Shown: positions 12,278 through 47,173, counted from the first letter of the stretch. The stretch is DNA of 64,000 bases from Allobosea sp. Tri-44 (GCF_004123845.1 NZ_NBDP01000030.1:620001-684000), one strand, 5' to 3'. Notes: generated by a model not told the origin, from the letters alone. Made by a program: numbers and translations.

Positions 12278-12347
12278 AGTCTGTCTGCACATTCTCAGAG
12301 GCCTCCTGCTGAGGAGCCCTTCCGGGAAGAGGGAGACCCCTTCCCCC

Positions 12348-14021: not shown

Positions 14022-14253
14022 GTCTCTCTCCCTTTGTTGCGGCGCAGCATAAGGGAAATTCCGCCGATCGCGAAAGCCGTCTTTTGGCGGAGACCGGCCG
14101 TGGCGGGCGCCGCCGCGTTAACCCCGCTTCAACCCTGACACGGGATTATCCAACTGTCGCGAATTTGCATCATCTCTATTCGCGGTCGCTCATCTTTCGT
14201 CTTTCGGATACGAGGGCCTGGGTCAGTTGCGTCTGCGTCGGCGATCGAAGCGA

Positions 14254-15522: not shown

Positions 15523-15527
15523 GCGGT

Positions 15528-15633: not shown

Positions 15634-17565
15634 TCAGCTCTCTAGAAAGGGGCGACTGTGATGATGCAATGCCCAGATGGTCTTGCCACCTGTCTCAAGG
15701 GTTAGCTCAAATCGTATCGGTGAATTCTCATCGCGATTTTCGACGGGTGTCTCGTGCAGCGTCAGCCCCTCTGGAAGGAGGTTCGCCAGCAGGTGTGCGG
15801 TGATTTCCTCAACTGCACAGCAAATTCGATTCAACTGTCGATCGACGTACGACAGAACCGGTTCGCCTTCGATCTCCGGGGCAATCACCTCGATCTGACC
15901 CTCGGTGCGCTGGTAAGTCGCCAGCGGCAATCGCCAGGAATGGTGGTCAACCGCATTTCGTCGATCAACGACCTGCTCGGACCAGCTACAACGCGCCGCC
16001 ACGAGATATGCGGCCAAGCCAGGATCGTCCTTGGCCAAGGCTTCAACGCCAGCCAGGAACGCCTCTTCCTTTTTGAACCAGAATCCGATGTCGGTGCCTA
16101 GGCACTTCGCCAGCTCCTGCAAGCTGACTTTGATCACATTGACGGCGGCCCGAAGGAAGTCCGCGCAGATCCGATTGAGATCTCGATCCGCGAGATGCTC
16201 GACTTGAAGCGTCGTTCCCTCCATACGCACGCCGACGCCGTTCGCCACGCTGCTTTGAAGCGAAGACCAGGTTTCCGTTAGCGCGCGAGCCGCGTCGCGG
16301 AGGTCAGTGACCGCGGTCGTCAGCCCGTGGAAAATAGCGTCGAATTCATTCGTCTTGTGCTCATCCTGGATAGCACTTCCTCGCAAGTGAAGTAGACCGA
16401 GGAAGAGTCGGGCCACGTAGGGCGAACTCGTTCCCTCGTTCGATACCAGCCGTTTCTCAAAGGTGGGCTCGACAATGGTCACCCGCATATTGGAGCGCTG
16501 CTCGAAGCGCTTGAGCAAGCTGACGAAGCCGTCGTGCTGGAGCGGTAGCACCTGCGATAGCTGAAGGTCACCGGGTCTTCGCGTGACCCGCCGCCCCCCT
16601 TCCTGTGACACCTCCAAAAGGGCAAGCAATGCTTCGAGCGGAAATGGCCCCCGAAGCATGACGACGCCACCGTCTTGCCACGGCAATAGATCGATTGACC
16701 CTAGCGTCTTAGCGCCCTGAACGATGTGGAAAGCGCGACGGGGAAGATATTGGGCGAACAACTGCTCCGCTGGCATTGCCCGCAACTCGCCGTCGAGCGC
16801 GAAGGAATAGGCTCCCCGGCGCAAAAACGACGTGGTTGCCCCCCTTCCCATGACCTCCGCGGGGAGCGGAGGACGGTAACCGGGGGAGAAGAACGCCAGC
16901 TGTCCGGCAAGCAGAAACGCCAGTCGATTTAGAGCGTCGGCAGCTCCATGCCGGATGACCGGCACTATAAAAATCGGCGGTGGACAACCGACACGCCCCC
17001 GTCCGGGCGGCAGGCTGCCACCCATTATTTTGGAATCGCCTGGATACTGGACCGCATAGCTTAAAATTCCAGTCGACCCGACCAACAGCGCGTCGACCCA
17101 ACCATCCAACGGAACCGAAGCGTTCAGCCTTTCCAACTCGGCTACTAAATTCTCGAACGGAAGATCGGTCGTTTGAGCGTAAATGATTCCCTGAGTTGTG
17201 GTGCTGATGTGAACGGCACCAACTTTGGGCACTTTGCCCTTCTCGAGCATTTTGGCGGTGGCAATGCGGCGATGGCAACGGCCAAGCTCTTCGATATTGA
17301 GCTTGGGAACGGCGTCAATCACGGCCGCGCAAGCATCAGCCGCTATTATCGCTGGCCTGGCTTCATCGCGATTACCCGATAATGTGTGCGCCACCACTTC
17401 GAATGGCCCGACGCTGCTCTTTCCGTCAGATACTGTGCCGGTGGATACGCATATCGGCCACTGCTCCAGAAAGGCCAACGCGGTGCGAAGAGACGAGCCA
17501 AGCTCGGCCGCCGGCGCCTGAGCGGCCGCTTGGCCATCTCGTTTGATACGTTCCGAAAGCGACAC
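15634..17565 (-). CDS. Uncharacterised 643-residue protein with C-terminal RNxxxH motif (prophage cargo)
   Basis: I do not recognise a named family. The protein is soluble, starts at a GTG (VSLSERIKRDGQAAAQ), and has two parts. The N-terminal 160 residues include WPICVSTGTVSDGKSSVGPFEVVAHTL and later LDGWVDALLVGSTGILSYAVQYPG, which faintly recall the DUF6602 nuclease-like domain without its catalytic residues. The C-terminal third is helical and holds VVDRRNAVDHHSW near residue 535, an RNxxxH pattern like that of HEPN ribonucleases. It lies just inside the element terminus, divergent from a membrane-protein gene 77 bases away. The setting suggests phage-defence or other accessory cargo. The HEPN reading rests on one motif and is weak. 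Confidence 0.5.
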   Translation of the reverse strand: MSLSERIKRDGQAAAQAPAAELGSSLRTALAFLEQWPICVSTGTVSDGKSSVGPFEVVAHTLSGNRDEARPAIIAADACAAVIDAVPKLNIEELGRCHRRIATAKMLEKGKVPKVGAVHISTTTQGIIYAQTTDLPFENLVAELERLNASVPLDGWVDALLVGSTGILSYAVQYPGDSKIMGGSLPPGRGRVGCPPPIFIVPVIRHGAADALNRLAFLLAGQLAFFSPGYRPPLPAEVMGRGATTSFLRRGAYSFALDGELRAMPAEQLFAQYLPRRAFHIVQGAKTLGSIDLLPWQDGGVVMLRGPFPLEALLALLEVSQEGGRRVTRRPGDLQLSQVLPLQHDGFVSLLKRFEQRSNMRVTIVEPTFEKRLVSNEGTSSPYVARLFLGLLHLRGSAIQDEHKTNEFDAIFHGLTTAVTDLRDAARALTETWSSLQSSVANGVGVRMEGTTLQVEHLADRDLNRICADFLRAAVNVIKVSLQELAKCLGTDIGFWFKKEEAFLAGVEALAKDDPGLAAYLVAARCSWSEQVVDRRNAVDHHSWRLPLATYQRTEGQIEVIAPEIEGEPVLSYVDRQLNRICCAVEEITAHLLANLLPEGLTLHETPVENRDENSPIRFELTLETGGKTIWALHHHSRPFLES

Positions 17566-17642
17566 CGTTCAGCCCCCCTTGGCCGGTGGCAGATTAGCCG
17601 CACGTTGCTATACCTCGCTACCGAGCTCTGGGGCTTAACCAC

Positions 17643-18437
17643 ATGACTGCAAAACCGGCCAATCCATCGAAATTTGCGCCACTTCGCCGCTGGGCGTGGA
17701 AACATTCTGCCGGAATAATCGCCGTCGCCGTCATGGTGGCCTGCTGGATCGTCTATTTTTTTCCACTGCCTGCGCCTTTTGCAATCGATCCCGGGCTGAC
17801 AGGTAACTTTTTCACCGAGAGCTGTGGCATCGCGCTGACCGTGGTGCTGTTGGAGCGGTTGCTGAGGTCCGAGGAGAGCCTGCGCAACCAGCGGGCGCTA
17901 CGCCTCGCAAATTCCGAGTTCACCCTGATCTTCAACCGCTGCGTCGATCTCTGGGCGACATTCGCAGATGCCGTTGCTGACAAGGATGGGGCGGTTCCAA
18001 TCTTCGATCCCTCGGTTCCGCGCCGCATGCGCTCAACCAACATCTTTGGGCCAGCACATGTCCATCCGGTCAGGCCCATCAACGTCTATGCGAGCCAGCA
18101 GTTGAAGCAGCTCGAGAAGTTTATCCAACAAGCGATGCTTCGATATTTTCAGTCCGCCGATATGGAGACTTTGGAGGCGCTGCAAAAAATCGAGCGTAGC
18201 GTGTTCCTGCATATGGCGGAGCTTGCCACAGTGATCGCTGAGGGCTCCAGAGAACGCGGCCAGTTTCCAGGCTTTGCTGCCCCCGATGACCAGCTGGAAG
18301 AAATACTGCCGATCGAGCAGTTCCGCCAGGCGATCAACCTAAGCCGCGCTCGGTTGGCGCCTCCGGAACCGCCACTCAGCCCGCCGATGCTGCGGTTTCG
18401 CCAGCCTCGCGTCGGCAATGGTGGGAGAGCGAACTAG
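17643..18437 (+). CDS. Uncharacterised two-helix membrane protein (prophage cargo)
   Basis: A 264-residue protein. A basic N-terminus is followed by two predicted membrane helices (about residues 24-44, AGIIAVAVMVACWIVYFFPLP, and 55-75, ending TVVLLERLL). About 190 residues of helical, cytoplasm-type sequence end in a Pro-rich tail. No catalytic motif is visible. It starts 77 bases from the divergent 643-residue protein gene and converges with the Dam gene, overlapping it by 4 bases. In typical prophages the Dam gene would be near the end, so this pair looks like an addition between the late operon and the terminus. A membrane-anchored partner of the divergent gene is possible but unproven. 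Confidence 0.55.
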   Translation: MTAKPANPSKFAPLRRWAWKHSAGIIAVAVMVACWIVYFFPLPAPFAIDPGLTGNFFTESCGIALTVVLLERLLRSEESLRNQRALRLANSEFTLIFNRCVDLWATFADAVADKDGAVPIFDPSVPRRMRSTNIFGPAHVHPVRPINVYASQQLKQLEKFIQQAMLRYFQSADMETLEALQKIERSVFLHMAELATVIAEGSRERGQFPGFAAPDDQLEEILPIEQFRQAINLSRARLAPPEPPLSPPMLRFRQPRVGNGGRAN

Positions 18438-19920: not shown

Positions 19921-20823
19921 TTACGTCGCCTTCAGGAAGGAACCGGAGAACGTCGTCGAGAACCCGTCGATCTGGTCGGTGCCGCCGGCGCTGGCGTAGA
20001 ATTCGACGTAGTCGCCGATCGCGAGCTTGGCCAAGGTCGCCACCGTGACGGTGCCCTGGGTGTATGCGGCCTGCGGTCCGCCCTGCGAGGTGAGGTTGAC
20101 GGAGCCATTCTTGCGCAAGCCAGCGCCGAGGAAGGCGGCGCCTGACGCGGACACGATCGAGCCGAACAGCATGTACCAGCCGGGCACAGTTGCGGTGAAC
20201 TTCGTCAAGCCAGCGCCGAGTGTCATCGTGGGGCTTGATCCGGCCTCGGCTGCGTCGAGCTGGATCACGGTCACGCCGCTGCCGACGTTGCGGTTTGCGG
20301 TTGGCCAGGCGCGCCAGTTGATGTCCGGCTCCGGCACCTGCGCGGTGGCCGTAAGCTGCATCGCCACGCCGGTCCAAATGGCCGTTGTGAAGGTGTCCTG
20401 CTTCAAATCGCCCGGCAGCAGGACGGCGCCGCGGGGGCTGCGGAAATAGACCAGTCCGGGCCCGAGGTTGATGGTCGAATCTCCGGTGTTGGTAGCCGGG
20501 ATCCAGAAGTGAAGCTCCGTGCCGACGATTAGATCAGCATAGCTCGCGATCACCGGATTGAGCGTGCCGGCATAGGCGTTGGCCGGGCCAGTGCACAAAA
20601 CGTAATTCAGGCGCTGAGAGCGGATGCCGATCGCAAGCTGGTTGAGCTTGGCGCCGTTCGGCGCCTGGGTGGTCGATTCGATAAAACCGACGATCTCCTC
20701 CTGCTCCGCATTCAGATGCGTCGCGGTGACGACGGTACCGGGAATCCCCGCCTCGGTGTCTTTGCTGCGGAACTGGCGCTTGCCGCCGATGATCACGGCT
20801 GAGGAATGAGCGATGCGGTCCAT
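19921..20823 (-). CDS. Phage tail fibre protein with C1q-like tip
   Basis: A 300-residue fibre. The N-terminal part (MDRIAHSSAVIIGGKRQFRSKDTEAG) would attach to the baseplate. The middle is beta-rich and Gly/Thr-rich, and the last 110 residues (AGLTKFTATVPGWYMLFGSIV ... LAKLAIGDYVEFYASAGG ... STTFSGSFLKA) follow the C1q/TNF-like jelly-roll pattern seen at receptor-binding tips. It overlaps or abuts gp48 upstream and the DUF4376 gene downstream. Short for a fibre, but no break is visible. Confidence 0.75.
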   Translation of the reverse strand: MDRIAHSSAVIIGGKRQFRSKDTEAGIPGTVVTATHLNAEQEEIVGFIESTTQAPNGAKLNQLAIGIRSQRLNYVLCTGPANAYAGTLNPVIASYADLIVGTELHFWIPATNTGDSTINLGPGLVYFRSPRGAVLLPGDLKQDTFTTAIWTGVAMQLTATAQVPEPDINWRAWPTANRNVGSGVTVIQLDAAEAGSSPTMTLGAGLTKFTATVPGWYMLFGSIVSASGAAFLGAGLRKNGSVNLTSQGGPQAAYTQGTVTVATLAKLAIGDYVEFYASAGGTDQIDGFSTTFSGSFLKAT

Positions 20824-20824
20824 G

Positions 20825-21421
20825 TCAGAGGCTCCCGTAGTCGAACACGACCTGGGTATGCGCTGGCTTCAGCCGGCGAATGTCGCAGTCGATGTCGCTG
20901 ATGGTCAGGTCGTAGAGGCGATCGCCTGCCTGGCCTTCGTCGGCCTCGAACAAGCTCTCCTCGGTGAAGGCGAGATGGACGATCCAGATGAACTGCTGCG
21001 GCCAATCGACGAGCTCGTCGCCGGCGACCATCTCACCGGCATAGGTGACGCGATTCTCGCTGATGGTGATTGCGACGCCGCGCTTGGCGGCCAGCTCGAT
21101 GAAGTATGCCCGGCTGGCGCCACCGCGCGCCGTCCAGCGCTGATGCGCGAGCTGGCGGCGATCGCCGAGCGACATGGCCGATCTATCGCGACCGCACAGA
21201 TCGGGTCCGAGCACGCGCTCGAAATCGGTCAGACAGACTGATGCCAGGCGCGGATCGACCTCGCGCAGCATCGCCTCGGCCACCGCTTCGACCTCGGCAA
21301 TGCCGCCGGCGAGCGGTGTGAGCAGCGCGGCAATGACGCTGTCGCGATCGCGCCGCCAGATCCAGCCGGGCGGCAGGTTCGACAGCAGCTCGTCCAGGAC
21401 CTGGTCCTCGCTCCGGCTCAT
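20825..21421 (-). CDS. Phage tail protein gp48-like (YmfQ/DUF2313 family)
   Basis: A 198-residue baseplate-wedge protein of the Mu gp48 type. The start LDELLSNLPPGWIWRRDRDSVIAALLTPLAGGIAEVEAVAEAMLREVDPRLAS is the family's N-terminal signature (LLPPGxxW, then a long helix). It goes on with CLTDFERVLGPDLCG and LAHQRWTARGGASRAYFIELAAKRG. In Mu it joins the baseplate to the fibre. It overlaps the baseplate J gene by 4 bases. Confidence 0.85.
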   Translation of the reverse strand: MSRSEDQVLDELLSNLPPGWIWRRDRDSVIAALLTPLAGGIAEVEAVAEAMLREVDPRLASVCLTDFERVLGPDLCGRDRSAMSLGDRRQLAHQRWTARGGASRAYFIELAAKRGVAITISENRVTYAGEMVAGDELVDWPQQFIWIVHLAFTEESLFEADEGQAGDRLYDLTISDIDCDIRRLKPAHTQVVFDYGSL

Positions 21422-22521
21422 GGCGGCGGATCCCAGGTCGTGAGCCCAGGAACCGGCAGCGCGTCGCGATTGGGCACGACATCGCCGGCCGGCAGCACGA
21501 GGTAGTGACGGTACTCGCCACTGGCTGCGCTGATCGCCTCCGAGAGGCGCGAGCGGGCGAAGCGCTCGCCAATCTCGGCCTCCGCCGCGAAATGAGCAGC
21601 GGATGCGCCCTGCACGGCGGCGCGCACCGGCAGCGTGTCCGGTACGACGGCAAGCTGCATCGGCACCGGCAACAGCACCACCGGCCGGACGTAGACCTCG
21701 GCCGTCACCGGCCGGAGCACATCGAGATGAGCGGCCATGGCGTCGAGCTCGGCCGGGATCGGCGGCGTCGGCGCGACGGCCGTTCCCATGGCGACGACGA
21801 CGCCGACCGAGCCAGGGCCGACCCAGAGTGGCACGGTCGCGACCTTGGCGACGGCGAAGCTGTTCTGGATCCAGAGGCGATAATCGTGCTTGGCGCCGCC
21901 ATGACCGGGCTCGCGGATCTCGGCGAGGACGCGCGCCAACAGCGACTCGTCCGTCTCCTCCTCGGCGCCGCCAGCCATGCCGTTGGCATCGAGCAACGCA
22001 GCTTGGGGATCGAGCCCGGCCTGGACGGTGACGATCGGCAGGCTGGCGCCGCCGGCAGTGTTGCCGAGGACGCCGCCCTCGGCCGCCTCGAGCGCGATCG
22101 TCGCGTCGCCGGCGCCATTCAGGACGCCGCCGGCCGAGGTGAGGGCCAAACCGCCGCCCGGCAGGCGCAGGTCGAGGCCGGCCGGCACGGCCGTGGTCGC
22201 CACGCCGGTGAAGAGAGCCAGGCCAACGGCTTTGGTCGCCGGCCGGCGGAATACGCCCCAGATCGAGGCGTGACGGATCAGGAATTCGGCCTCGGCCGTA
22301 TCCGGCATCAGCTGCTGGACATTCCAGCTGAGATGCAGATGCGCGCCGTAGAGCCCGGTCGCCTGCGCCCGCACGATCGCGGCGAGCAGGCCTTTTTCCG
22401 AGCGGACGGCCCGGGCGATCGCCGCCGGGCTCGCGTCCGGCCGGATGCGCTTCAAGGAGGTTTCAAGTCTGGCCTCGGCCCGGCGCGTCAATTCCTCGGG
22501 CGTGGGCAGCGGCGCCGGCAT
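21418..22521 (-). CDS. Phage baseplate assembly protein J (gp47-like)
   Basis: A 367-residue baseplate J protein, the usual size for Mu gp47. Visible features are an N-terminal helical region (LTRRAEARLETSLKRIRPD), AEFLIRHASIWGVFRRPATKAVGLALFTGV, and the conserved DESLLARVLAEIREPGHGGAKHDYRLWIQNSF. The last is the hallmark of this family (a Gly-Gly followed by an YxxW segment). It builds the wedge ring of a contractile tail. It overlaps gp46 and gp48 by 1-4 bases, in standard Mu order. Confidence 0.9.
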   Translation of the reverse strand: MPAPLPTPEELTRRAEARLETSLKRIRPDASPAAIARAVRSEKGLLAAIVRAQATGLYGAHLHLSWNVQQLMPDTAEAEFLIRHASIWGVFRRPATKAVGLALFTGVATTAVPAGLDLRLPGGGLALTSAGGVLNGAGDATIALEAAEGGVLGNTAGGASLPIVTVQAGLDPQAALLDANGMAGGAEEETDESLLARVLAEIREPGHGGAKHDYRLWIQNSFAVAKVATVPLWVGPGSVGVVVAMGTAVAPTPPIPAELDAMAAHLDVLRPVTAEVYVRPVVLLPVPMQLAVVPDTLPVRAAVQGASAAHFAAEAEIGERFARSRLSEAISAASGEYRHYLVLPAGDVVPNRDALPVPGLTTWDPPP

Positions 22522-22985
22522 CAGGCGGCCTGCTGCATCAGCTCGAGCTCGGTCTCGCCGACGCGGCAGACCAGAGCAAGCCAGCCGCGGCGCGGCCAGC
22601 TGGTCGAGATCTGCGCCGGCGCCTCGGTCTCGACGCCGACCCAGCGCAGCGCCTCCCTAGCAGCGTCCTGGACGAAGAGCTCGGTGAGCTCGTGCTGCTT
22701 GGCGCGCTCGAGCAGCCAGAGGCGCGAGCCGGTGCAGCGGCCATAGGCGTCGAGCGCATCACCAACCGCGCCGCGACGAGTGACGAAGGAGGAGGAGACG
22801 TTGAGGGCGTCGCGGCCTTGCGGCAGCTCATCGTCCGGACGGGCCCGCCGGTCGGAGCCGAGCGAGATCAGCATGGGGGTAAGTGCTGTCTCGTCGAGCA
22901 GCAGATCGCCGTCCTCGCCCAGCTCGGCGTCAGCCGTGCGGGTGTCCGGATCGAAGATCAGCGCAACGTCGAGGAAGTCGGCCAT
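22521..22985 (-). CDS. Phage gp46-like baseplate protein
   Basis: A 154-residue GP46-family protein from the ATG at 22985 (MADFLDVALIFDPDTRTADAELGEDGDLLLDETALTPMLISLGSDRRA). The family traits are the early DxxxxxADxxLxxDGDL strand pair and the following LISLxxDRRA helix with RG-W later. In Mu-like phages this gene directly follows gp45; here two foreign genes separate them. The frame could start 9 codons earlier. Confidence 0.8.
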   Translation of the reverse strand: MADFLDVALIFDPDTRTADAELGEDGDLLLDETALTPMLISLGSDRRARPDDELPQGRDALNVSSSFVTRRGAVGDALDAYGRCTGSRLWLLERAKQHELTELFVQDAAREALRWVGVETEAPAQISTSWPRRGWLALVCRVGETELELMQQAA

Positions 22986-23020
22986 AGCGCGGACAATGTC
23001 GCGCGCGCGCAAGCCGGGAC

Positions 23021-23040
23021 ACGACCCGAGCTCGGGTCGT
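23021..23040. repeat. Perfect 20-bp palindrome at the cargo boundary
   Basis: ACGACCCGAG followed at once by its reverse complement CTCGGGTCGT. It lies between the gp46 start and the protease stop codon, next to the 8-bp repeat GTCAGACG. It may be a transcript end or a recombination scar. Confidence 0.7.
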
Positions 23041-23047
23041 CAGACGA

Positions 23048-23860
23048 TTATAGGGCAATGTACTCGTCCAACGCTCGACGGATATGACGAGCACTGTAGA
23101 TCATGAACCGACCGTTTCTGGCGCTCGTAATCATGCCTAAGAAGCTGAGGTGACACTGCCAGTCCTCAGATCGCCAAACGCAAAAAACGGGCGCGCCGCT
23201 CATCCCGTCCGGCCTATCCAGCGGCCGCTGCAGCGCGAGCGGGTCCTGCACCATGGGTAGACGATTTTCCTCGTCCATCAGTGCCGGCGCCGCATCTGTC
23301 AGATACAGCCGGAGCCACCCGACCCGTATGTTAACTCCACCCCCTTCAAGAGGATCAGAGTATTCAACTGCTGAGGTTGGATAGCCGATTGCCGCAGACG
23401 CGATGATCGATCCGGCGTCCAAATCCTCTCGAGTCGTCGCCAAATCAATCTGAAGGAAGTGGCGCCTTAGCTCCCGGCCATTGCGCGGCGAGCGGTATTC
23501 GAACAATGCAATATCGTCGAGGTTTGCCTGATGAGGAGGCTGAGCTTGAGCCTCTCCGATCGCATCGGGTGGCAAGCCAATGAACCGGCCATTTGGCTGT
23601 TGCAGCATGATGCTGAATTGGTCGGCATCAAAGGCAGCAATCTGGTGTCGGCAGCACAAGGCGAAATTGCATTCGCGATAACGAAGTAGGAAAGCCGAAC
23701 CAGATTTGCTGACGTCGAAGTCAGGCTCTCCGGCGTTGTATAGGTAAGCCGGAACGCAAAAGCGTTGGACAGCAAGCGGAACGTCTTTGAATGCTACAAG
23801 CACTCCATTCACGGGCACCGAAGCAAACAAGCGGGCTCGGATCAGTCTTGGCAGTCGCAA
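23048..23860 (-). CDS. Trypsin-like serine peptidase (cargo between gp46 and gp45)
   Basis: About 250-270 residues; there is no in-frame ATG, so the start is a TTG at 23860 or one of the GTGs about 15 codons later. A chymotrypsin-like triad can be read in order: SAFLLRYRECNFALCCRHQ with His72, NLDDIALFEY with Asp115/116, and RPDGMSGAPVF with Ser221 in the GxSGxP form. No signal peptide is visible, so it should act in the cytoplasm. Cytoplasmic trypsin-like domains are common in bacterial conflict systems, where they cut and activate or inactivate a partner. It is divergent from a PIN-nuclease gene, and both sit inside the phage tail operon. The substrate is unknown. Confidence 0.7.
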   Translation of the reverse strand: MRLPRLIRARLFASVPVNGVLVAFKDVPLAVQRFCVPAYLYNAGEPDFDVSKSGSAFLLRYRECNFALCCRHQIAAFDADQFSIMLQQPNGRFIGLPPDAIGEAQAQPPHQANLDDIALFEYRSPRNGRELRRHFLQIDLATTREDLDAGSIIASAAIGYPTSAVEYSDPLEGGGVNIRVGWLRLYLTDAAPALMDEENRLPMVQDPLALQRPLDRPDGMSGAPVFCVWRSEDWQCHLSFLGMITSARNGRFMIYSARHIRRALDEYIAL

Positions 23861-24012
23861 GTTTTTCCCCCGGCGAAGTCGACAACCTCACCCTAGCATG
23901 GCGCCTTCCCATGCGTCCGGGTCTGGATCAGGTCCCGCGTTCGGTGCGACGTGATCGACCCGCTTCCGTCTCAGCTCCGAGGAATGGTATGCCGCCTTAA
24001 CTCGAGGACGCG

Positions 24013-25107
24013 ATGCCGATGATAGAACAGCCCAAATCTGCGCCGGTTCGTCTTAGGACGCATCATGTGTTTCTCGACACCCAGGTCTACCGGAAGCTCG
24101 GGCATAATCCAGCCGCGCCCCCGTTGGTTGCTCTCAAGGAGCTGCTATCGAGCGGTCGTCTAGTATTGCATATCACCGACGTCATATTTCAAGAAGTCGA
24201 GCGGCAGCTGCACGACTTCGTTGGCGAAACAACGTCAGCGCTCAAAGGGGCGAAGCGACACTTGGGAAGATGGGTTCAACGGTACCCTAAACTCGTTACG
24301 ACCCTGCCTGAATTCGATCAAGCAGCCATCTCGATGGCTGCGTTCCGGGATTTTTCTTCGTTCATAAGATCGGTTCGCGCAATTGAGCATGGCATCGACA
24401 CAGTGCCGCCATCGATAGTTTTTGAGCGCTATTTCAAGCGCGAACCTCCGTTTCACAAGCTAGGCAGCAAAGAATTCCCTGACGCCTTCAACATCGCGAT
24501 GCTTGAAGCTTGGTGCGACAGTATGAAGGAAACGATTTACGTGGTCGGCGCTGACAAGGCCGTCTGTCAGGCTGTCGACCAATCTGAACATTTGCTGGCA
24601 ATGAACTCGCTGGAGGATCTCCTCGCGTCGGTTGCCGCGATGGATGAACCTCAACTTGTCGCCGAAGCCCGGACCATTTTCACCAGTTCGCCGGTTCAGG
24701 CGCAACTCGAGGCCGCTATCGAAGCTCAGATTGGCGATCTGATTCCCATATACGTGGGCGGTGATCTTCCGGAGGGCGAAGTCATCGAGCATCAGCTTGA
24801 TGGAGAAATATCGATTGGCGAGTTCAAGGTTCTTGCGACGTCGGCGACGGGGCTCCGCGTCGTCGTTCCCGTCAACATCCCATTGGTTGTCGATGTTTCA
24901 TATGAGGACCGATCCGATGCGATCTACGATAGCGAGGACGGCAAGTACCTCTTCGCGGAATCTGCGACCAAGGAAATCAGGGCTGATCCTACGATCCGCT
25001 TTTTTGCTCGTGTGTTTCGAGACCCATCAAGCAAAGACGTAGTCGTGGAAGCTCAGCCAGTGAACGTCCTGTTCCGGGTCAACGATGAGTTCGAAAATTA
25101 TAAGTGA
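24013..25107 (+). CDS. PIN-domain protein, DUF4935 type (cargo between gp46 and gp45)
   Basis: A 364-residue protein with an N-terminal PIN domain of the DUF4935 type. The four acidic active-site positions are present: Asp22 (VFLDTQVYRKL), Glu61 (DVIFQEVERQL), Asp157 (KEFPDAFNIAML) and Asp181 (VVGADKAV). About 165 C-terminal residues follow, beta-rich with acidic patches (EISIGEFKVLATSATGLRVVVPVNIPLVVDVSYEDRSDAIYD), of unknown role. Such enzymes are predicted ribonucleases and occur in phage-defence loci. Base composition is visibly more AT-rich than the flanking phage genes. It faces against the late operon, 152 bases from the divergent protease gene, implying its own promoter. Confidence 0.75.
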   Translation: MPMIEQPKSAPVRLRTHHVFLDTQVYRKLGHNPAAPPLVALKELLSSGRLVLHITDVIFQEVERQLHDFVGETTSALKGAKRHLGRWVQRYPKLVTTLPEFDQAAISMAAFRDFSSFIRSVRAIEHGIDTVPPSIVFERYFKREPPFHKLGSKEFPDAFNIAMLEAWCDSMKETIYVVGADKAVCQAVDQSEHLLAMNSLEDLLASVAAMDEPQLVAEARTIFTSSPVQAQLEAAIEAQIGDLIPIYVGGDLPEGEVIEHQLDGEISIGEFKVLATSATGLRVVVPVNIPLVVDVSYEDRSDAIYDSEDGKYLFAESATKEIRADPTIRFFARVFRDPSSKDVVVEAQPVNVLFRVNDEFENYK

Positions 25108-25118
25108 AACGATGACGG

Positions 25119-25688
25119 TCAGACGCCCGGCTCCGGGTCCGAGCCGACCACCGGCGCGACCGAGCAGACGATGCCGCTGGCGTTCAAGACCAGCCAGTGG
25201 GCGCCGAAGCGCAACTTGACATATTCGGGGCGGATCACGACGCGCGGCGCGTTCGCCGCCGCGCCAAGTTTGGCGATGATCCGGTCCTCGAGCACCTCGA
25301 CGGTGGCGTCCTTGACCTTTGACTTCACGCGCTTACGGCTGGTGCTCTCGATCGAGCCGTCCTTCTTCACATGAACGCGGTCGCCCTTGAGGTTGTGGAC
25401 GGCGACCTCGCCTTCTTCGAGCCCGCCCATGCGGTTGCCGGGCGCCTGGAGCGGCAGTGCGACAAGGTCGCCCTGATCGCCACCGACCGCCAGCACGATC
25501 GCCTCGCCGCCGGCGGGCGGCCTGGTCGAGACGCCGGAAACGCCGAGCACCTCGACATCGGTCCGCTCGACATGGCGATGCACCTCGACCGTAGCGGTCT
25601 GGCTGCCCCCCTTATCGTTGGTCGATCGCACCGCAGCGCGGGCGACGACGCCGCGATAGGCGTGAGCCGTTTCAGCGTCGGCCGACAT
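25119..25688 (-). CDS. Phage baseplate assembly protein V (gp45-like spike)
   Basis: A 189-residue spike protein; the ATG at 25688 is preceded by AGGAGG. The OB-fold start (AYRGVVARAAVRSTNDKGGSQTATVEVH) is followed by PPAGGEAIVLAVGGDQGDLVALPL and a beta-helical tip (AVHNLKGDRVHVKKDGSIESTSRKRVKSKVKDATVEVLEDRIIAKLG). This is as in Mu gp45/P2 gpV, which pierce the outer membrane. Its last codons overlap the 8-bp repeat that marks the cargo insertion. Confidence 0.88.
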   Translation of the reverse strand: MSADAETAHAYRGVVARAAVRSTNDKGGSQTATVEVHRHVERTDVEVLGVSGVSTRPPAGGEAIVLAVGGDQGDLVALPLQAPGNRMGGLEEGEVAVHNLKGDRVHVKKDGSIESTSRKRVKSKVKDATVEVLEDRIIAKLGAAANAPRVVIRPEYVKLRFGAHWLVLNASGIVCSVAPVVGSDPEPGV

Positions 25689-25698
25689 GGGCGCCTCC

Positions 25699-26958
25699 TC
25701 AGAGCGGCTTGGCGGTGCTGTCGAGCCCACCTGGTTTGCTGCCGCCCTTCTTCTTGGCGGACTTTTTCTGCGAGCGGCGGTCGCCGACCGGCATGAGGTC
25801 GAAGGCCTCGCGCCCGGTGACGCGCAGGCGGGTCATCTCGCCGCGTTCGTCATAGGAGATCGAGACGCCAGCGATCAGCTGCTCGGAAGAGAGGCCGGCA
25901 TAGTCGTCCTCGACGAAGGCGACCGTATTCATCTGCCAGGGCTTCTGGCCGGGCCCGCCGGTGATGCCGCGATAGCTGTAATCCATCTTGTCGCCCTTGG
26001 CCCGGCGGGTGCGCATCTCCCATTCCGCCTGCTTCTGGGCGTCGACATCCTTCGCCTGCGTGCGCGACATCGCGATGTGCGGCCGCCAGCGGGTGACGTC
26101 CGGATCCTTGGCATGGCCCATGACATGGGCGCCGGCGCCGCCCGGCTTGTCGAGCGGGGAATCCGTCGCCGGCGCCGGCTGATCGGGCGCCTCGTCCTTC
26201 GGCTCCTCGTCGACGCTGAGCGCGGCCTTGTCCGGGCGACGCCCGCCGTTCTTCTCGCTCTGCCCCTTCACGAAATAGTCGCTGAAGCGCTCGCGGGCCG
26301 AGAAGGTGGCGCGCACCCTGGTGACGTTGCCGGGAAAGTGGATCTCGTCGATCGCCTTCTGCTTGCCGGAGCGGGTGATCAGGATGCCGCCGACGCGGTC
26401 GCTGGTGATGATAACGGCGCGCTGCTTGGCGTATTTGGCGAGGCACGAGATCACCGTCTCGCCAGCCTCGACCGTCGCCTTGTCGAGCACCGGGCTGGTG
26501 TCGACATCACATTTGACCTTGATGCCGAAGGGCTCGCAGATTTTCTTGGCGAACTCCTCGAGCTTGATCTTCTTGTACTCGTGCTTGCCGCGCGGATCGG
26601 GCGGGCAGTCGACCAGATCGCCGGTCTTGTCGCGGCCGGAGATCGTGACATAGCCGCCGCCCTGCTCGCCCACCTCGGAGCAGACGTCATCGATCCAGCC
26701 GACCAGCCAGGTCTTCTTGTCGATCGTGATCTCAGCCTTGCGGCCCCAATTCATCGGCTCGCCATCACCAGCCGGCGTCGTCCACTCCCAGGCGACCTTG
26801 GCGCGCTCATCGTCATGTACGGTGAGCTCGAAGGACGCTGCGAGCTCGCCCATGTCGTGGTCGAGCTGCACCTTGGTCCAGCGGTCAATGATCTTGCCGT
26901 CGATCTTCAGCGCGATCCGGCGCGTCGGGATCTTCGCCGGGAGATAGACCTGGCTCAC
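25699..26958 (-). CDS. Phage baseplate hub, late control gene D-like (Mu gp44)
   Basis: A 419-residue hub protein. The N-terminal half (RIALKIDGKIIDRWTKVQLDHDMGELAASFELTV ... VGWIDDVCSEVGEQGGGYVTISGRDKTGDLVDCPPD) has the beta-rich VgrG/gpD pattern. The middle contains EFAKKICEPFGIKVKCD, and the C-terminal domain has HIAMSRTQAKDVDAQKQAEWEMRTRRAKG and a final YDERGEMTRLRVTGREAFD, standard for Mu-type hub proteins. It overlaps the remnant of the DNA-circularisation gene by 4 bases. Confidence 0.88.
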   Translation of the reverse strand: MSQVYLPAKIPTRRIALKIDGKIIDRWTKVQLDHDMGELAASFELTVHDDERAKVAWEWTTPAGDGEPMNWGRKAEITIDKKTWLVGWIDDVCSEVGEQGGGYVTISGRDKTGDLVDCPPDPRGKHEYKKIKLEEFAKKICEPFGIKVKCDVDTSPVLDKATVEAGETVISCLAKYAKQRAVIITSDRVGGILITRSGKQKAIDEIHFPGNVTRVRATFSARERFSDYFVKGQSEKNGGRRPDKAALSVDEEPKDEAPDQPAPATDSPLDKPGGAGAHVMGHAKDPDVTRWRPHIAMSRTQAKDVDAQKQAEWEMRTRRAKGDKMDYSYRGITGGPGQKPWQMNTVAFVEDDYAGLSSEQLIAGVSISYDERGEMTRLRVTGREAFDLMPVGDRRSQKKSAKKKGGSKPGGLDSTAKPL

Positions 26959-27188
26959 GGCTTCAGCACCTCGATCGGGCCGGCGCCGAGCATGGCCGGA
27001 TGGCGCAGGCGATTGCGCCGGACGATGTCATGCAGCATCGGCACCACCTGGCTGGGATCGTCGCCGGCATAGTGCTGGGCGAGCAGCCAGGCGCCGGCGC
27101 GCAGCGGCTCGATCCGGATCACCGGCTGCAGCCGGCCGATCACCTCGGACATGTCGATGGCGAGGCGGCCACTCGTCTCCTCGAGCGC
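26955..27188 (-). pseudogene. 3' remnant of the phage DNA-circularisation protein gene (Mu gpN-like)
   Basis: Only the last 75 or so codons remain, reading ALEETSGRLAIDMSEV... and ending DIVRRNRLRHPAMLGAGPIEVLKP. That ending matches the conserved RNRIRHPGF-PLEVL tail of Mu DNA-circularisation proteins, which are normally several hundred residues long. Upstream the sequence runs into the transposase gene in another frame. The remnant keeps its 4-base overlap with the hub gene. The exact junction is somewhere near 27150-27210. Confidence 0.7.
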
Positions 27189-28965
27189 TTGCCAGGTCGA
27201 GCACGGTGCGGCTGGTGATCTTGCGGCGCTCGGCCCGCATGCTGGCAGTGCGGTCGTCGATCAGGCGCTTCTGTGCAGCCGCCACTTCGGCGCGTATGGC
27301 TGCCGGATCCTCGCCCAGTAGCTCAGGACAGCGGCCTTCGCCGAGCAGTGCGTCGGTGTCGGGATCAAGACACCAGATGCGGCCCTTGTCCGCGGGATCG
27401 AGGCGGATAAACACACGCGTCCCAACGGAAACGCCGGCAGCGAGATAGTGATGGCCGTCGATGCGGACGCCGCGCTTACCGACGGTACGGATGCCGTCGC
27501 CGCCAGGGGCAGGCATCAGCAGGACGGTGAGAGCTTGGGCGTCGACGCGACGGATGGCCTGTGTCCAGCTCGCTGCCTTGGCGAATGGGCTCATTCCAAG
27601 GGCGCCATGGCCGCGCCGGCCATACTGAGCGTCTGCCCAGGTATCGCACTCGGCCTGCAGTTGCTCGCCGCTGAGCTCGACAGCGAAGGCCTTGGCGTCA
27701 TCGGTGCCCAGACGGGAGGCGAAGGCGCGCCGAGCCTCGATCACCTTGCGATCGCTGACACTGTGCCCGATGAAACCCGGCAATGTCCGACCGAGATCAG
27801 TCTGGAAGGTGCGGATCACCCGCTCCACCGGGCCCTTCTGCCAGGGGGAGAAGGCGGTCGAGGTCACATGCTCGATCTGCAGTGCGGCGAAGAGCCGGCG
27901 TGTCGCCTTCGCGACGAAGTCCGAACCATTGTCGGTCTTCACTTGCTCGGGCACGCCCCAAGCCGCCAGTGCTTTGCGCAGAAGGAGCTGGACGGCTTCG
28001 GAGCGCGGGGTCTTCGATACGTGCAGGATCAGCCGGCGCGACCAGATATCGATGCAGGCATAGACCGAGTGGCGACCGTCCAGGCAAAGGGCGTCGACTG
28101 GTGAAGCGTCGATCTGCCAGAGCTCGTTCAACCGTGTGGTCAGGTGCGTATAGGAGCCTGAGACACGCGTGCGCGAGACGAAGGCATCGGGATTGGTCAG
28201 CGCCATGAGCTCGGTTTGAAGCTCGGATTTCCAGCGCTTCAACGCGACTTCAAACGCACGCTGGCCCGGCAGCGCTCGCATCTCGCCGTCCAGGGCGACG
28301 CCCTCCGGATAGCGCCCGCGACAGGCCTCGTAGATTTGTCGGGCGGTATAGAGTGGGTTCTGCGCCACAAGGGCGAGCATGAAGGCCTTCAACTGGCCAT
28401 CGGCGCCGGCGTCAAGCAGGCCCTTGCCTCTGCGAGAAGCTCCGCGATCGACCGCGAGCCGCTGCACTTCGCCATCGCTCGCGACGGAGAGCCAGCGCAA
28501 CAGCGTCCGCGAAGACAGCCGCCGGACGCGCTCACGCACCCAAGCCGGAATGTCGACTCTGTGGAGATTGTAGAGATCAGCAAAATGAGTGATCGCCACG
28601 GTCTGCGTGAGATCTGCCGCCCTCTGAAAAGCGCGGAGCGCCCCAAGGATGGCGATGCGAGCATCGAGCTGTTCGCCAGCCGCTGCGGCCGGCACCGAGA
28701 CGTCTGGCGCCGCTTGAAGCGCGGTTGAAGCGGCTTCGGCGATCGCGCTCTGGCCTGCGCGCCCGAAATAGGCAGCACGCGCCGCGGCCGGCAGCAGATT
28801 GACGTGATACTCGACGCCGCCGCCGCGGCCTGCGCGGGCGCGGCACAGACTGGAAAAACCCGCCCATCCCTCTCGCTCGGCCAGATCGCGCAGGCCGCGA
28901 TCGGTCGCGGGCAAGCCTGGAAGCGCGAGGGCGGCGAGCTCGGATGCTGTCAGCCAGAGCTTCAC
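27028..28965 (-). CDS. Mu-like DDE transposase, 3' end replaced by a deletion junction
   Basis: A 645-codon frame. The N-terminus (MKLWLTASELAALALPGLPATDRGLRDLAEREGW) is the MuA-type winged end-binding domain. An RNase H-like core follows, with Asp286 (WQIDASPVDAL), Asp345 (VKTDNGSDF) and Glu381 (KGPVERVIRTF), so all three catalytic acids are present with D-35-E spacing. A beta-barrel domain (KRGVRIDGHHYLAAGV, GTRVFIRLDPAD) is next. After RRKITSRTVLDLAS the frame continues into about 50 Arg/Pro-rich residues that are the off-frame reading of the tail-gene remnant, so the native C-terminus, needed for ATPase and remodelling partners, is missing. No MuB-like ATPase follows. Probably immobile on its own. 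Confidence 0.8.
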   Translation of the reverse strand: MKLWLTASELAALALPGLPATDRGLRDLAEREGWAGFSSLCRARAGRGGGVEYHVNLLPAAARAAYFGRAGQSAIAEAASTALQAAPDVSVPAAAAGEQLDARIAILGALRAFQRAADLTQTVAITHFADLYNLHRVDIPAWVRERVRRLSSRTLLRWLSVASDGEVQRLAVDRGASRRGKGLLDAGADGQLKAFMLALVAQNPLYTARQIYEACRGRYPEGVALDGEMRALPGQRAFEVALKRWKSELQTELMALTNPDAFVSRTRVSGSYTHLTTRLNELWQIDASPVDALCLDGRHSVYACIDIWSRRLILHVSKTPRSEAVQLLLRKALAAWGVPEQVKTDNGSDFVAKATRRLFAALQIEHVTSTAFSPWQKGPVERVIRTFQTDLGRTLPGFIGHSVSDRKVIEARRAFASRLGTDDAKAFAVELSGEQLQAECDTWADAQYGRRGHGALGMSPFAKAASWTQAIRRVDAQALTVLLMPAPGGDGIRTVGKRGVRIDGHHYLAAGVSVGTRVFIRLDPADKGRIWCLDPDTDALLGEGRCPELLGEDPAAIRAEVAAAQKRLIDDRTASMRAERRKITSRTVLDLASARGDEWPPRHRHVRGDRPAAAGDPDRAAARRRLAARPALCRRRSQPGGADAA

Positions 28966-29843
28966 GCCGTTTCGCCCTTTTTGGTACGGGCGGGCTGGGC
29001 GAGCGGCTCCGTCGCCTTCAGTCGAAGGTCGACCATGGTGCGCAGGTCGAGCAACTGCTGGCGCGAGAGGCGCTGGATGATCGGTTCCAGCTTTACGAGC
29101 GGCCGGTCGTCCTTTCGCACTGCGCCGCCCTCCGGCACGATACCGGCGCCGACGCGAGCTTTGGCGACGGAGGTGGCCCGTCCTGCGGCGAACTCGCGAG
29201 CGACTTTGAGCTGCTGCTCCCCATCAAGCGCCGCGAGCGCCTGCAACTGAGCCTGGTTGTCCGCAATCTTGGTGCCGCGGATCAATGCGACGGCATCAGG
29301 CGACAGTTTGCCAGCCAATTCGATCGAAAGACGGATTGTACGCGGCGCCAAATCCGTCTGCTTGGCAGCCTCCTTCGCGAAGGACAGGAAAGTGGCAAAG
29401 TTTGCCACTTTCCCCTCGTTCCTCTTCGACTTCCTGGCCTTCCCGTGCGCGGTCTGGGGGTGCAGTGCCTCGTATACCCGCTTACGCTCTGCCAGAAATT
29501 GGGCTCGCTCCAGCGCGGTGAGCTCCTTGCGAGCAAGGTTTTCGTCAATCTCAATCTGACGCGCCTGATCGTCGCTGCACTCGATCGCTACCGCGTCGAT
29601 TTCATCCCATCCGTTGATCTCGCCAGCTCGATGGCGATGACCGCCGACAACAAGCTTCCAGCCGCTGCCAGCAGGATGAACGCGCAACACGACGGGTTGG
29701 ATCTGACGCCCCTCATTCATGGAGGCAGCGATCAGTTGCGCGTGAGCCTCATCGACTGGCCGCAGGCGGCCCGAGGTGTCGATATCGGCAAGGCGGACGC
29801 GGAAGACTGGAGAACTGGTGGTGAGCGTGGCGAGCAGGCTCAT
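28962..29843 (-). CDS. ParB/RepB-like nuclease-fold protein of Mu-like phage early region
   Basis: A 293-residue protein. Residues 15-110 form the ParB N-terminal fold: VRLADIDTSGRLRPVDEAHAQLIAASMNEGRQIQPVVLRVH, VVGGHRHRAGEINGW and DEIDAVAIECSDDQARQIEIDENLARKELTALERAQF. A helix-turn-helix-like segment follows (LAPRTIRLSIELAGKL). In Mu-like phages of Hyphomicrobiales a ParB-like gene commonly stands between the Ner-like gene and the transposase, as here, with 1- to 4-base overlaps on both sides. A role in early regulation or DNA binding is inferred. Confidence 0.82.
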   Translation of the reverse strand: MSLLATLTTSSPVFRVRLADIDTSGRLRPVDEAHAQLIAASMNEGRQIQPVVLRVHPAGSGWKLVVGGHRHRAGEINGWDEIDAVAIECSDDQARQIEIDENLARKELTALERAQFLAERKRVYEALHPQTAHGKARKSKRNEGKVANFATFLSFAKEAAKQTDLAPRTIRLSIELAGKLSPDAVALIRGTKIADNQAQLQALAALDGEQQLKVAREFAAGRATSVAKARVGAGIVPEGGAVRKDDRPLVKLEPIIQRLSRQQLLDLRTMVDLRLKATEPLAQPARTKKGETA

Positions 29844-30216: not shown

Positions 30217-30891
30217 TTGCTGATTGACCCGGCAAAAATGGCGGAAAGGCTTTCTGATGCAATCAATCGTGCCGGCGGTCGCGGCAGGGTCGCTTCGCTG
30301 ACGGAAATTCCGCAATCTTCGATCGATAGATACTGCCGCAATCAGTCGGAGATCCCGGCTCTGCGCATGGGCGAGATCGCACGCGCTTGCGCAGTGACGA
30401 CCGACTACCTCATTTATGGGGAGGATTTTTCGGCAGATCTGGTGAGAGCCGAACTCGCCGCGTCACCGGTCAACGACAACGTCGTGATGATTCCCATGCT
30501 AGACGTCATCGCCTCGGCCGGACCGGGCATCGAAAACGCCAGGCCCTATGAGATTGGCAAGTTGCCATTCCCGCGCACTTGGTTGCTCGAGTTGGGCTTG
30601 CCAGAGAAGTTCGCGCGGTTCGCGGACAGCCGCGGTGACAGCATGACTCCGACGATCCCTGACGGCGCGATTTGCCTGATCGACATCCGGATCGACAGGC
30701 CGCGCAAGGATGGAATCTACGTGCTGGTCGATGGCAACAATGTTCGGATCAAGCGCATCGCAATAGGCTGGCAGGGGGCGATCCAGCTGCTGAGCGACAA
30801 TGAACGCTATGCGGCCGAGACGCTTGCTGCTCCGGACGCTGAAGCCCTGCGGGTTGCCGGCCGGGTGGTTTGGGCTGGCGGTGAGATCTAG
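30217..30891 (+). CDS. S24-type phage repressor (CI/LexA-like)
   Basis: A 224-residue repressor. An N-terminal helix-turn-helix (MAERLSDAINRAGGRGRVASLTEIPQSSIDRYCRNQSEIPALRMGEIARA) is joined to an S24 peptidase domain. Self-cleavage features are visible: a cleavage-type Ala-Gly in DVIASAGPG near residue 107, Ser in RGDSMTPTIPDG, and Lys in NVRIKRI. DNA damage should therefore trigger its autocleavage. The start is a TTG at 30217, chosen because AAGGA precedes it; the ATG at 30238 lacks a site. It faces away from the early operon, as in Mu. Confidence 0.88.
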   Translation: MLIDPAKMAERLSDAINRAGGRGRVASLTEIPQSSIDRYCRNQSEIPALRMGEIARACAVTTDYLIYGEDFSADLVRAELAASPVNDNVVMIPMLDVIASAGPGIENARPYEIGKLPFPRTWLLELGLPEKFARFADSRGDSMTPTIPDGAICLIDIRIDRPRKDGIYVLVDGNNVRIKRIAIGWQGAIQLLSDNERYAAETLAAPDAEALRVAGRVVWAGGEI

Positions 30892-32563: not shown

Positions 32564-35500
32564 ATGTCCGGCGAAGAGGTTGACAACGAAGAAGAAGAGC
32601 GTGGGTCAAGCCCGGCCGCTCGCGGAGGCGCCGGCGTCTACATAGAAGGCGAACTGGGCGCCTTCTATCTGCTCGCTATGCTCGCCCGCAGCGAGCCACG
32701 GGGATTGAAGAATACTCGGATCGAACGGGTACGCTTTCAGGGCGTCGAGTTGGGGTATGCCCTTGACGACCTGATTGTTCACGCTAGCAACGCCGCAGGC
32801 GAGAGCCTCCTCGAAATTCAGTCCAAGCGGACAATCACCTTCGCGCCCAAAGATCCCGTCTTCCGAGAGGTCTGCGCGCAGATCGCAACAAGCACAAACG
32901 CATCGTGCCCCGAAGAGCGCCATTTCCTCGGCGTAGCCACCCAAAGGACCAGCAACGCCATATCCGGCGCGTATCAGGACGTGCTCCAGTGGGCGGACAT
33001 GGCCGGCACCAGTGCCGATTTCTTCCGGCGCTTGTCTGCGAAAGGCGTCGCGAGCAAATCCATGCGCGACTTTGTTGCGACGTTCCGCGCTAACCTCGTC
33101 GCGGAAGGGGTCGATGAGAATGACGACGCCATTTGGCGCATCCTTCGCCGGTTTCTGATCCTTGAATTCGACTTCGAGTCGAGCTCGCCAGTCGCGCGGA
33201 CGCTCGGGCTCGTCCTGGCGGGACAAGTGCTGTCCGACGAGGATACGCCGCGCGCTGGCGCGTTGTGGAGCACCCTCATCGAAATTTCCATCGCGACCAG
33301 CAAGGCTGGCGGATCTCTCGATCTCCAAACATTGTCGGAAGAACTGCGCAACCGTGGCTTCCGCCTGGCCGGCGATCGGAATTTTTCGCTGGCTAGAGCT
33401 AGGCTCAAAGAAATGGCCGGCATGGCGTTGGCCAACATTGGCAACACGATCGCAGGTCTGCACTTGCCGCGGCTCGACGCGATCGCCGCGGTCGATTCCG
33501 CGCTGGAGAGTCACCGGCTCATCGAAATCCGCGGAGGTCCGGGCGTCGGCAAATCAGGGGTGCTTCGCCACTTGGCTGAGCGCCACCTAAGGCAGTCGCA
33601 CGTCATTGTGCTCGACCCGGTGGGCACACCCGATGGCGGATGGATCGCGTACGCCCAATCGATTGGGGTGTCGGCCACGGCGAAGGCGTTTCTGAGCGAT
33701 CTTGCCGCCAGCGGCGGCGGTGTTCTTTTCATCGACAGCCTGGAGATGTTCGCCGAGCCCGGGCGACAGCGGACGGTCAACGACCTGCTGCTCGAGGTCA
33801 GCAGGATCGAAGGATTTACCGTCATAGCGACCGCCCGTTCCGAGTTCGGGAAGGATGGAGAAACCTGGCTGGCGGATGATGCCCTTGCCGCCCTCGGAGC
33901 CGGCCAAACGGTTAGCGTCGGGGAGCTTCAGGACGCCGAAGTCGAGATGCTCAGCGATCATGCGCCGGCGCTTCGCGCGCTGCTTGCCACCGGTCACCCC
34001 GCGGCTCCTATCGCCCGTAACCTTTATCGCCTCTCCCGTCTGCTCAAGGTGCCCAGCTCGGCCACCATCCGGACCGAGGCCGCACTCGCGGATTATTGGT
34101 GGCGGACCGCTGACGGCGCTTCCGCCGACGTAGTGCGCGCAGCTCAGCGGATACTCGCCGATCTGGTCGACAAATCCCTCACTGGGGGAGACGCGCTGGA
34201 GCTGAAAAGCGACTCGACCGCCCGGTCGCACCTCTTGCGATCGCTGACGCTACGCGAGGGTAGGCGCGACCATCTCGGCTTCTATCACGACGTCCTGCGC
34301 GATTGGGCCGTCGCATGCCGTATCCACGAGGACCGCAGTCACCTAACAACCCTCGATCTGACTGCTCCCGTTTCGCCGCGCATTGCGCGCGGCATCGAGT
34401 TTGCCGGGCGGTTGTCCCTTGAGATGCAGAACGGGTGCGACTCTTGGCTGGAGATCCTCACCCTTCTGTCGCCTGCGGGCTCTCACGGTTCATGGAGGCG
34501 CCAGGCGCTACTAGCGATCGTGCGATCCGAGCTGGGACTAAGCCTGCTCGATCGCTGCGGTGTGGCTCTGCTCGCACAAGGAGGCTCGCTATTCCGGGAG
34601 CTATGCAGGGCCATCGTCGCGGTCGAAACGGTTGCGACCGCGGATCTTCTCAAAAGCGTAGATCAGGGCGGAACTCAGCCTGTCGTGCCAAGGTCGCTGC
34701 GAACCAACACCACTGGGTCCGCCGCGGTGCTTTTGCTGTGGTGCGCGAGCCACTCGAAGAATATCCCCCTGCAGGCGATTGGTGCAGTCATCGACCTCGT
34801 CGAGATCCAGTATGTCATCCTGATGGGTTCTCCGACCCTGGCAAAGTCCGTCGCTAAGATGCTATTTGACTGGCTGCTGCAGCTGGACGTTCGAGACGCT
34901 CTCAGGACAATACCCAGTAGCAAGATGGCGGGTAACGTCGACCGGCAGGCGGGCGATCGGCTGGTGGAAGATCTGCGAATGTGGTCGCTTTTGCTTACCG
35001 TCCACGCGCCCGATGACGCCAAAGCCTACCTCCGTGCAGTCGCCGCTGAGCCTGGCACCCACAAAGTGAAGGCGATTCGATCGTTCAGCAGCTTTCTCGT
35101 ACATGCTGCGCCGAGCGAGCTTGCCGCGTTGATCGTCGGCAGTCTGATCGAGCACAAGGAGCGTGAATCTCCAAATGGCCGATCTCGCGACCGTGAGTTC
35201 AGCTTCGCCGATTCGGACTACCTTCCGCCATCGCCCGCGCAGCCACCCTTCTTCGATTTGCTCCAGGCCTCGCCCCAGATTGGGCTCGGTCTGATCCGAA
35301 AGCTAACGCTGGAGGCGATCTCTCACGGTTCGCGCGGCGCCGGTGCCAGCGCCGACGGTTTCACACTCGTGTTCGAGAACGGGCCGCGCTTCTTCCCCTG
35401 GAAGCAGAGTTATTTTTGGTCGAGGGACCAGGCTCGAGAATATTCCGTCGCATCTGGTCTCAAAGCGCTCGAAGCATGGGGACACGCTCGGCTCGATGCC

Positions 35501-45267: not shown

Positions 45268-45513
45268 TGGCCTCACCTGATTGGATGCGCAACCATAGAG
45301 AGCATCGAACTGATGACAAGGCCACCCTGACTGCTGGATAATGCCGTTTTTTGGAACTTGGTCTGGATGGCGAACGCCAGCTTGGCGTGTCCGCTCGCCA
45401 CTATGTCCAGGCCCTCACTCGCAGAATCACTGGATTCCAGCCCGACGTAGGTGTGCCGGCGGTCGTCGAGGCCGGCATGAAGGCAGACCGGTCCCCCCAC
45501 CGCACCGCCAGCC

Positions 45514-46443: not shown

Positions 46444-46889
46444 CTGATCGGGCACTGCGATCAGAGAGGCATGAACCGGGAGGGCTCCTGGCGCGTTTTC
46501 ACGGGACGCTCTAGCTATTCTGTCCGGCCGGCCGCAGTAACGCATTTCAAAGCTCCAATCGCATGTCGTCTTGACGGCAAGGCCATGCAGCCGCGGCTGC
46601 GTGCAGGCGCAGGGCGTTCCGCCCAGTCCATCTGCTCGCTGTAAAGATCGTTGATTGCGCCAGGATTGCCACGGCGGACGACCGCCGCTGATCATCAGGC
46701 CGGAGGCTGTCTGGTAGCCTCCGGCGTCCCGCACGCGGGGCAAACTGTCCTGCGGCTACTTCATAAATGGCGGCGAGGCTTTGCCGGCGAGCCGGCCCGC
46801 TGCCTGGCTTCCGCCTGATCACTTGCGATCGAACCATTCCGCCGCCGGCGCGTTGTTTCAGTACACCATTCAGAACAGGAGGATGTCCG
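46444..46889. other. Intergenic segment with one hairpin
   Basis: No supported gene. A perfect 10-base inverted repeat, GCCGGAGGCT (46699-46708) and AGCCTCCGGC (46716-46725) with a 7-base loop, has no T-run, so it is not a clear terminator. Confidence 0.5.
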
Positions 46890-47096: not shown

Positions 47097-47145
47097 GCAC
47101 TCGCGGTCGCCTCACGCTGCAAGTCGGGCGTGACCGTTGAAAAAA

Positions 47146-47173
47146 GGCCCCGTCGGCTCTCGCCGGCGGGGCC
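47146..47173 (+). terminator. Rho-independent terminator after the CsbD gene
   Basis: GGCCCCG at 47146 pairs with CGGGGCC ending at 47173, followed by TTT. A run of A before the stem would give a weaker hairpin on the opposite strand. Confidence 0.7.

Follow-up and report, generated by a model that had tools for sequence, protein, structure and literature searches.

A protease gene and a PIN_12 gene as probable cargo at a gp45/gp46 hotspot of Mu-like prophages

The tail operon of a Mu-like prophage in Allobosea sp. Tri-44 carries, between gp45 and gp46, one gene for a predicted serine protease and one for a predicted PIN-domain protein, and this locus raises the question of how the two genes came to lie there, whether they belong together and what they may serve. 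The original prediction offered, as a hypothesis, a two-gene defence or addiction module with the nuclease under the control of the protease. The stretch analysed, referred to here as the window, comprises 64,000 nt (GCF_004123845.1 NZ_NBDP01000030.1:620001-684000). The basic arrangement was found as predicted, with two divergent ORFs in the tail operon at the expected positions and on the expected strands, and with flanking genes that match the gp45 and gp46 families:

20825..22521, minus strand, gp47 (Baseplate_J) and gp48 (Phage_Mu_Gp48)
22521..23012, minus strand, gp46 (GP46, PF07409, 1e-21), the ATG at 22985 being its likely true start
23047..25117, the insert, 2,071 bp, GC 0.55
23048..23860, minus strand, predicted chymotrypsin-fold serine protease, 270 aa, TTG start, triad H72/D116/S221
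23861..24012, divergent intergenic region, presumed from its position only to hold the promoters of both genes
24013..25107, plus strand, predicted PIN_12 (DUF4935) protein, 364 aa, acidic residues D22/E61/D157/D181
25119..25730, minus strand, gp45 (Phage_Mu_Gp45, PF06890, 5e-15)
25699..26958, minus strand, gp44-like baseplate hub

The insert contains these two ORFs only, 152 bp apart, and is foreign in composition, its GC being 0.55 as compared with 0.67-0.69 (about 0.68) in the surrounding DNA; the values of the two genes are alike (0.54 and 0.56). Both borders carry the octamer GTCAGACG:

23039..23046, plus strand, duplication copy GTCAGACG, including a copy of the gp45 stop
25118..25125, plus strand, duplication copy GTCAGACG, including the gp45 stop codon in use

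The octamer occurs twice in the whole window, at the insert borders only, and it is this placement that matters, as the copy number alone is unremarkable (2 seen vs 2.67 expected). Comparison with relatives established that the repeat noticed originally is a true 8-bp duplication. Close relatives (L072, L067, and L093) have empty gp45/gp46 sites, and that of L072, which has one copy, aligns to window positions 25118-27194 and 20537-23046 in two alignments overlapping by exactly 8 bases (L072 6576-6583), so that the pair represents one ancestral octamer doubled. When the border sequences were shuffled, unaligned and with the known position unused, a repeat of at least 8 bp appeared in 10 of 500 trials. 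Because the octamer contains the gp45 stop codon, the end of gp45 and the region upstream of gp46 were both kept. The single duplication around both genes, together with their similar GC, fits a joint arrival and is no proof of it. An exact 8-bp duplication and gene ends at most 12 bp from the borders could also indicate a small transposon or cassette formed by the genes together with their borders; however, the insert lacks any gene for a transposase or recombinase, inspection of its ends showed no terminal inverted repeats and no comparable duplication surrounds other cargo at this site, all of which renders that origin most improbable.

The 20-bp palindrome reported beside the duplication is also real, but it is not an end of the insert: the empty sites of relatives carry the same element, which therefore belongs to the phage backbone. 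Two elements precede gp46 in this region:

22999..23012, minus strand, conserved TTGCGCGCGCGCGA element between the hairpin and the gp46 start
23021..23040, minus strand, phage hairpin ACGACCCGAGCTCGGGTCGT with a stem of 8 pairs, phage backbone outside the insert

At empty sites the order is gp45, the hairpin directly after it, [A/G]TG, about 10 bases, GCGCGCGCG and the gp46 start, and a covarying hairpin followed by GCGCGCGCG before gp46 is a feature of Mu-like phages of Alphaproteobacteria (84 junctions in relatives). In 16 sequences picked for one shared register, the subset that the covariation figures describe, 128 of 128 cells pair and 21 two-sided changes were counted against a shuffled mean of 6, and sliding brings a sharp drop. 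Across 74 distinct junctions the hairpin recurs often but not at every one (median z -1.7 vs composition shuffles). The hairpin/GCGCGCGCG element has no Rfam family, and the pattern CATGA-N-GCGCGCG shows no meaningful recurrence within the window. We infer that these elements form a transcription-unit border, in which a terminator-like hairpin is followed by a putative promoter or translation element. A search for promoters of the insert genes found no sigma-70 consensus; one weak terminator-like site lies within the protease gene and the hairpin is situated 3' of that gene.

Both proteins retain complete active-site residues, as had been claimed. All 35 aligned protease homologues share H72 and S221, at least 90% of them have D116, and no family in Pfam, NCBIfam, PHROG, or PADLOC matches the protein. 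Its AlphaFold2 model (pLDDT 88.8) adopts a two-barrel chymotrypsin fold for which the nearest structures are DegS/HtrA (Z 16-17; for DegS, Z 17.4 over 189 residues, rmsd 4.5), with a Foldseek match at E 5e-7; the family profile found no solved structure by sequence. The modelled chymotrypsin fold stands and no named sequence family can be assigned. The protease would thus resemble DegS/HtrA in its fold and His-Asp-Ser triad, and it differs from them in sequence (16% identity) and in having no PDZ domain within its 270 aa. The PIN protein scores 73.5 bits against PF16289 (3.5e-20; curated cut-off 32) and D22, E61, D157, and D181 are invariant among 11 homologues, so that by score and acidic residues it is classified as a PIN_12 member. 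Its single-sequence structure model is unusable (pLDDT 33.8), its family profile found no solved structure by sequence and no characterised member of the PIN_12/DUF4935 subfamily was found. PIN defence proteins have been described elsewhere (DS-3 and DS-5; PMC13092281).

A two-gene addiction or defence module, in which a PIN toxin would be cleaved and silenced by the protease, or activated by it on infection, accords with adjacent, divergent genes inside one 8-bp duplication, with their similar foreign GC and with the catalytic residues retained in both proteins. Elsewhere, however, the families are found apart. Protease homologues were collected from 37 loci (one genome per species), 6 viral contigs and 5 plasmids, with 3 more besides that of the window from an order-level sample, these sets partly overlapping; a PIN_12 gene was present at 0 of about 43 of these loci (fetched flanks, mostly 6 kb). 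Among 397 genomes of the order, the protease, scored where a short peptide conserved at its catalytic serine was present, occurs in 4 and the PIN protein in 8, and only the genome of the window has both. No such protease was seen at the sampled loci of PIN homologues, whose neighbours are unrelated to one another. Moreover, a lone PIN_12 gene (L186, 898-2022) is flanked by Mu F and by the Mu I protease/scaffold gene in a Mu-like head operon, and a lone trypsin-like protease with marginal similarity to the window protease profile (E 0.0097) occupies the gp45/gp46 site itself in L112. Single-sequence protein searches with either protein gave no matches in genomes and viral contigs; an alignment search retrieved protease homologues from both, and the corresponding PIN search of viral contigs gave none. 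Deposited phages match neither protein and PADLOC holds no model for the pair. The genes of a toxin-antitoxin pair normally run in one direction as a single operon; the present genes, divergent, separated and without recurrent adjacency, do not have the type II form. The outcome named in advance as counting against the module, that the families never occur together elsewhere or that one gene is mostly present without the other, is largely what was observed: the foreign cargo and a plausible defence role stand, the fixed pair and the control of the nuclease by the protease lack support, and the module is decidedly improbable.

A looser association was also considered, in which members of the protease family act as a defence sensor or switch whose nuclease partner can vary (PIN in the window, HEPN-type or restriction enzymes at other loci). 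Several protease neighbours match PADLOC models, one protease comes after an XcyI restriction enzyme gene (L006), and others adjoin proteins with a weak HEPN match (L025, 0.0017), a weak ApeA_NTD1 match (L021, 0.0058) or an RNxxxH motif (homologous proteins of 224-240 aa with 33% identity; L024, 4957-5679, and L031, 7052-7726). As a raw count these cases come to no more than about 5 among some 33 independent loci, defence islands can bring such genes together by chance, and most protease loci have unrelated neighbours; at about six loci (L028, L029, L030, L032, L037, and L009), apparently on rhizobial-type plasmids, the protease gene has a ParB-like gene on one side and a 1,700-aa gene for a helicase/methylase on the other. 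The association is accordingly rated as unlikely, and its extension, that an uncharacterised cytoplasmic protease family of Alphaproteobacteria switches interchangeable RNases or nucleases in anti-phage defence and Mu-like phages spread such genes via the hairpin-marked gp45/gp46 site, would be quite doubtful. The protease and the PIN protein are probably separate passengers and not a fixed partnership. As observations in their own right, the RNxxxH proteins, each beside a protease of the family found in the window, are uncharacterised, and the protease neighbour in L034 was tried as a PIN-like protein and rejected (0.5% probability in profile comparison, no PIN_12 in the genome and no solved relative).

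The site has a clearer pattern than the pair. The original prediction had proposed examining whether insertion recurs between the same two phage genes, and it does, with different cargo. Gaps of more than 300 bp occur at 18 of 93 gp45/gp46 junctions; among 259 control junctions of these operons there are 3 (gp44/gp45, 0/87; gp46/gp47, 1/90; gp47/gp48, 2/82). The excess has a Fisher p of 7e-9, or 4e-5 once one duplicate and all gaps shorter than 500 bp, with short structural genes such as PAAR-like ones, are removed, these values being approximate as the 93 junctions may still include near-identical contigs. The cargo is varied and includes a response regulator (L068), a DUF2806 protein (L087, 9e-26), a DUF2971 protein that matches the PADLOC candidate PDC-S31 at 2e-37 (L095/L107), an Mrr-type endonuclease (L106, Mrr_cat 8e-7), an M41-like peptidase (L077), the lone protease of L112, which has a weak LmuA match (5e-6), a protein of 221 aa (L071), one of 207 aa that has an R-x4-H motif (L108) and a group of homologues sharing an NRxAxxHG motif (L069, L094, and L188); a HEPN-like reading of L108 and of the latter group relies on motifs spotted by eye. 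Matches to defence families thus comprise one strong candidate (PDC-S31), Mrr_cat and LmuA, and the rest are motifs or DUFs. Cargo sits on the gp45 side of the hairpin, with the exception of a short gene after the hairpin in L081. Several cargo genes are oriented against the late operon, as genes expressed during lysogeny often are.

With constant flanks, varied cargo and more insertions than the neighbouring junctions, gp45/gp46 is a cargo hotspot. Insertion there disrupts neither gene, because the site falls between the gp45 stop and the hairpin with its GCGCGCGCG element. No description of this hotspot was found in the open-licence literature, and one elsewhere is possible. The lone PIN_12 gene of L186 may mark a second cargo site, in the head operon of another Mu-like prophage. 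Phage morons are recognised as extra DNA between genes that are adjacent in relatives and by a composition unlike that of their neighbours, and both features are present in the window. The reading preferred here, with a probability of about 0.62, is that the insert is prophage cargo (a moron) at the gp45/gp46 hotspot, consisting of independent accessory genes which share one insertion and are probably anti-phage.

Whom such cargo could serve is related to the state of the prophage, the left end of which contains the following genes:

27028..28965, minus strand, MuA transposase, its C-terminal end fused to tail-gene DNA, with a deletion junction near 27195
28962-29843, minus strand, ParB-like gene
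30217-30891, plus strand, S24 repressor

The window prophage is defective. Head genes and most tail genes are absent from the expected place, homology to the tails of intact relatives stops at 27194/27195, and the last MuA codons run into DNA that corresponds to the 3' part of the tail gene preceding gp44 in relatives; the MuA ORF retains recognisable catalytic domains and about all head and tail-tube genes have been deleted. Since the prophage is defective, the protease and the PIN protein could now serve only the host cell. In two genomes of the same genus (L187 and L188) the chromosomal flanks match window positions 12343-15525 and 45505-48318 at 83-93%, and between them are only a C-terminal stub of gp45, cargo, the hairpin and an N-terminal stub of gp46, together with a short methylase fragment in L187. 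These remnants (L187 5559-8348, L188 5434-7230) are inverted relative to the prophage of the window, and their cargo ORFs (one of 240 aa in L188, two of 270 and 519 aa in L187) are open where the phage genes are broken, which suggests that cargo outlives the phage.

The same loci are relevant to the view that the insert is neutral passenger DNA, taken up by chance and with no function for phage or host. A defective host prophage and a pair seen once are in line with it; against it, neither gene is disrupted and both keep full active sites, many relatives carry cargo at the site and cargo has remained intact where the prophage decayed to stubs, so that neutrality seems quite improbable.

The window has no tRNA marking the chromosomal site. 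Other genes in this region deserve mention for themselves. Beside the prophage (32564-37654) is a gene, possibly for an NTPase with a defence role, whose 1,696-aa product matches nSTAND3 weakly (0.0055); the same island encodes a 601-aa protein with RTX calcium-binding repeats (39316-41121). Two genes of low GC, 0.59 (15634-18437; 643 and 264 aa), with no Pfam match, sit between a host gene and the Dam-type methylase of the prophage.

Under the preferred reading of independent cargo, a Mu-like contractile-tail phage of Alphaproteobacteria would have acquired the insert at the gp45/gp46 hotspot, where different phages hold different cargo, several pieces of it homologous to known or candidate defence families. 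The PIN protein would most likely be an RNase that halts growth or degrades RNA during infection, acting on host or phage RNA, and the protease a stand-alone cytoplasmic effector or sensor with the same general purpose, cleaving a host or phage protein. Both genes may be expressed in the lysogen from their shared intergenic region, and the phage has lost its head and most tail genes by the MuA-to-tail deletion. That one or both of the genes are anti-phage is judged about as likely as not.

Many new anti-phage systems have come from prophage hotspots. The gp45/gp46 site has a fixed position in a widespread group of Mu-like phages, is easy to find and has a hairpin that marks the border, which would allow simple collection of unknown defence candidates from Alphaproteobacteria, and the cargo recorded here includes several families without described function. 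The locus also provides a caution, namely that a two-gene insert need not mean a toxin-antitoxin pair.

Comparable sites are known in other phages. Mu-like phages of Pseudomonas aeruginosa possess plasticity regions or morons (PMC4378225; Tab, PMC10884400) where, likewise, single accessory genes of foreign GC lie between Mu-like genes and some have anti-phage or anti-CRISPR roles; those phages differ in their siphovirus tails, unlike that of Mu, and in that the regions are located mainly in the left arm. Defence hotspots have also been described in P2-like prophages and P4-like satellites (Rousset 2022, PMC9122126), with a second hotspot in P2 (Vassallo 2022, PMC9519451). Unlike these, the gp45/gp46 site belongs to Mu-like contractile-tail phages of Alphaproteobacteria, is adjacent to a conserved hairpin and has a putative defence role; like them, it is a fixed spot between conserved phage genes which accommodates variable cargo, often of one or two genes, including known or, in the present case, candidate defence genes.
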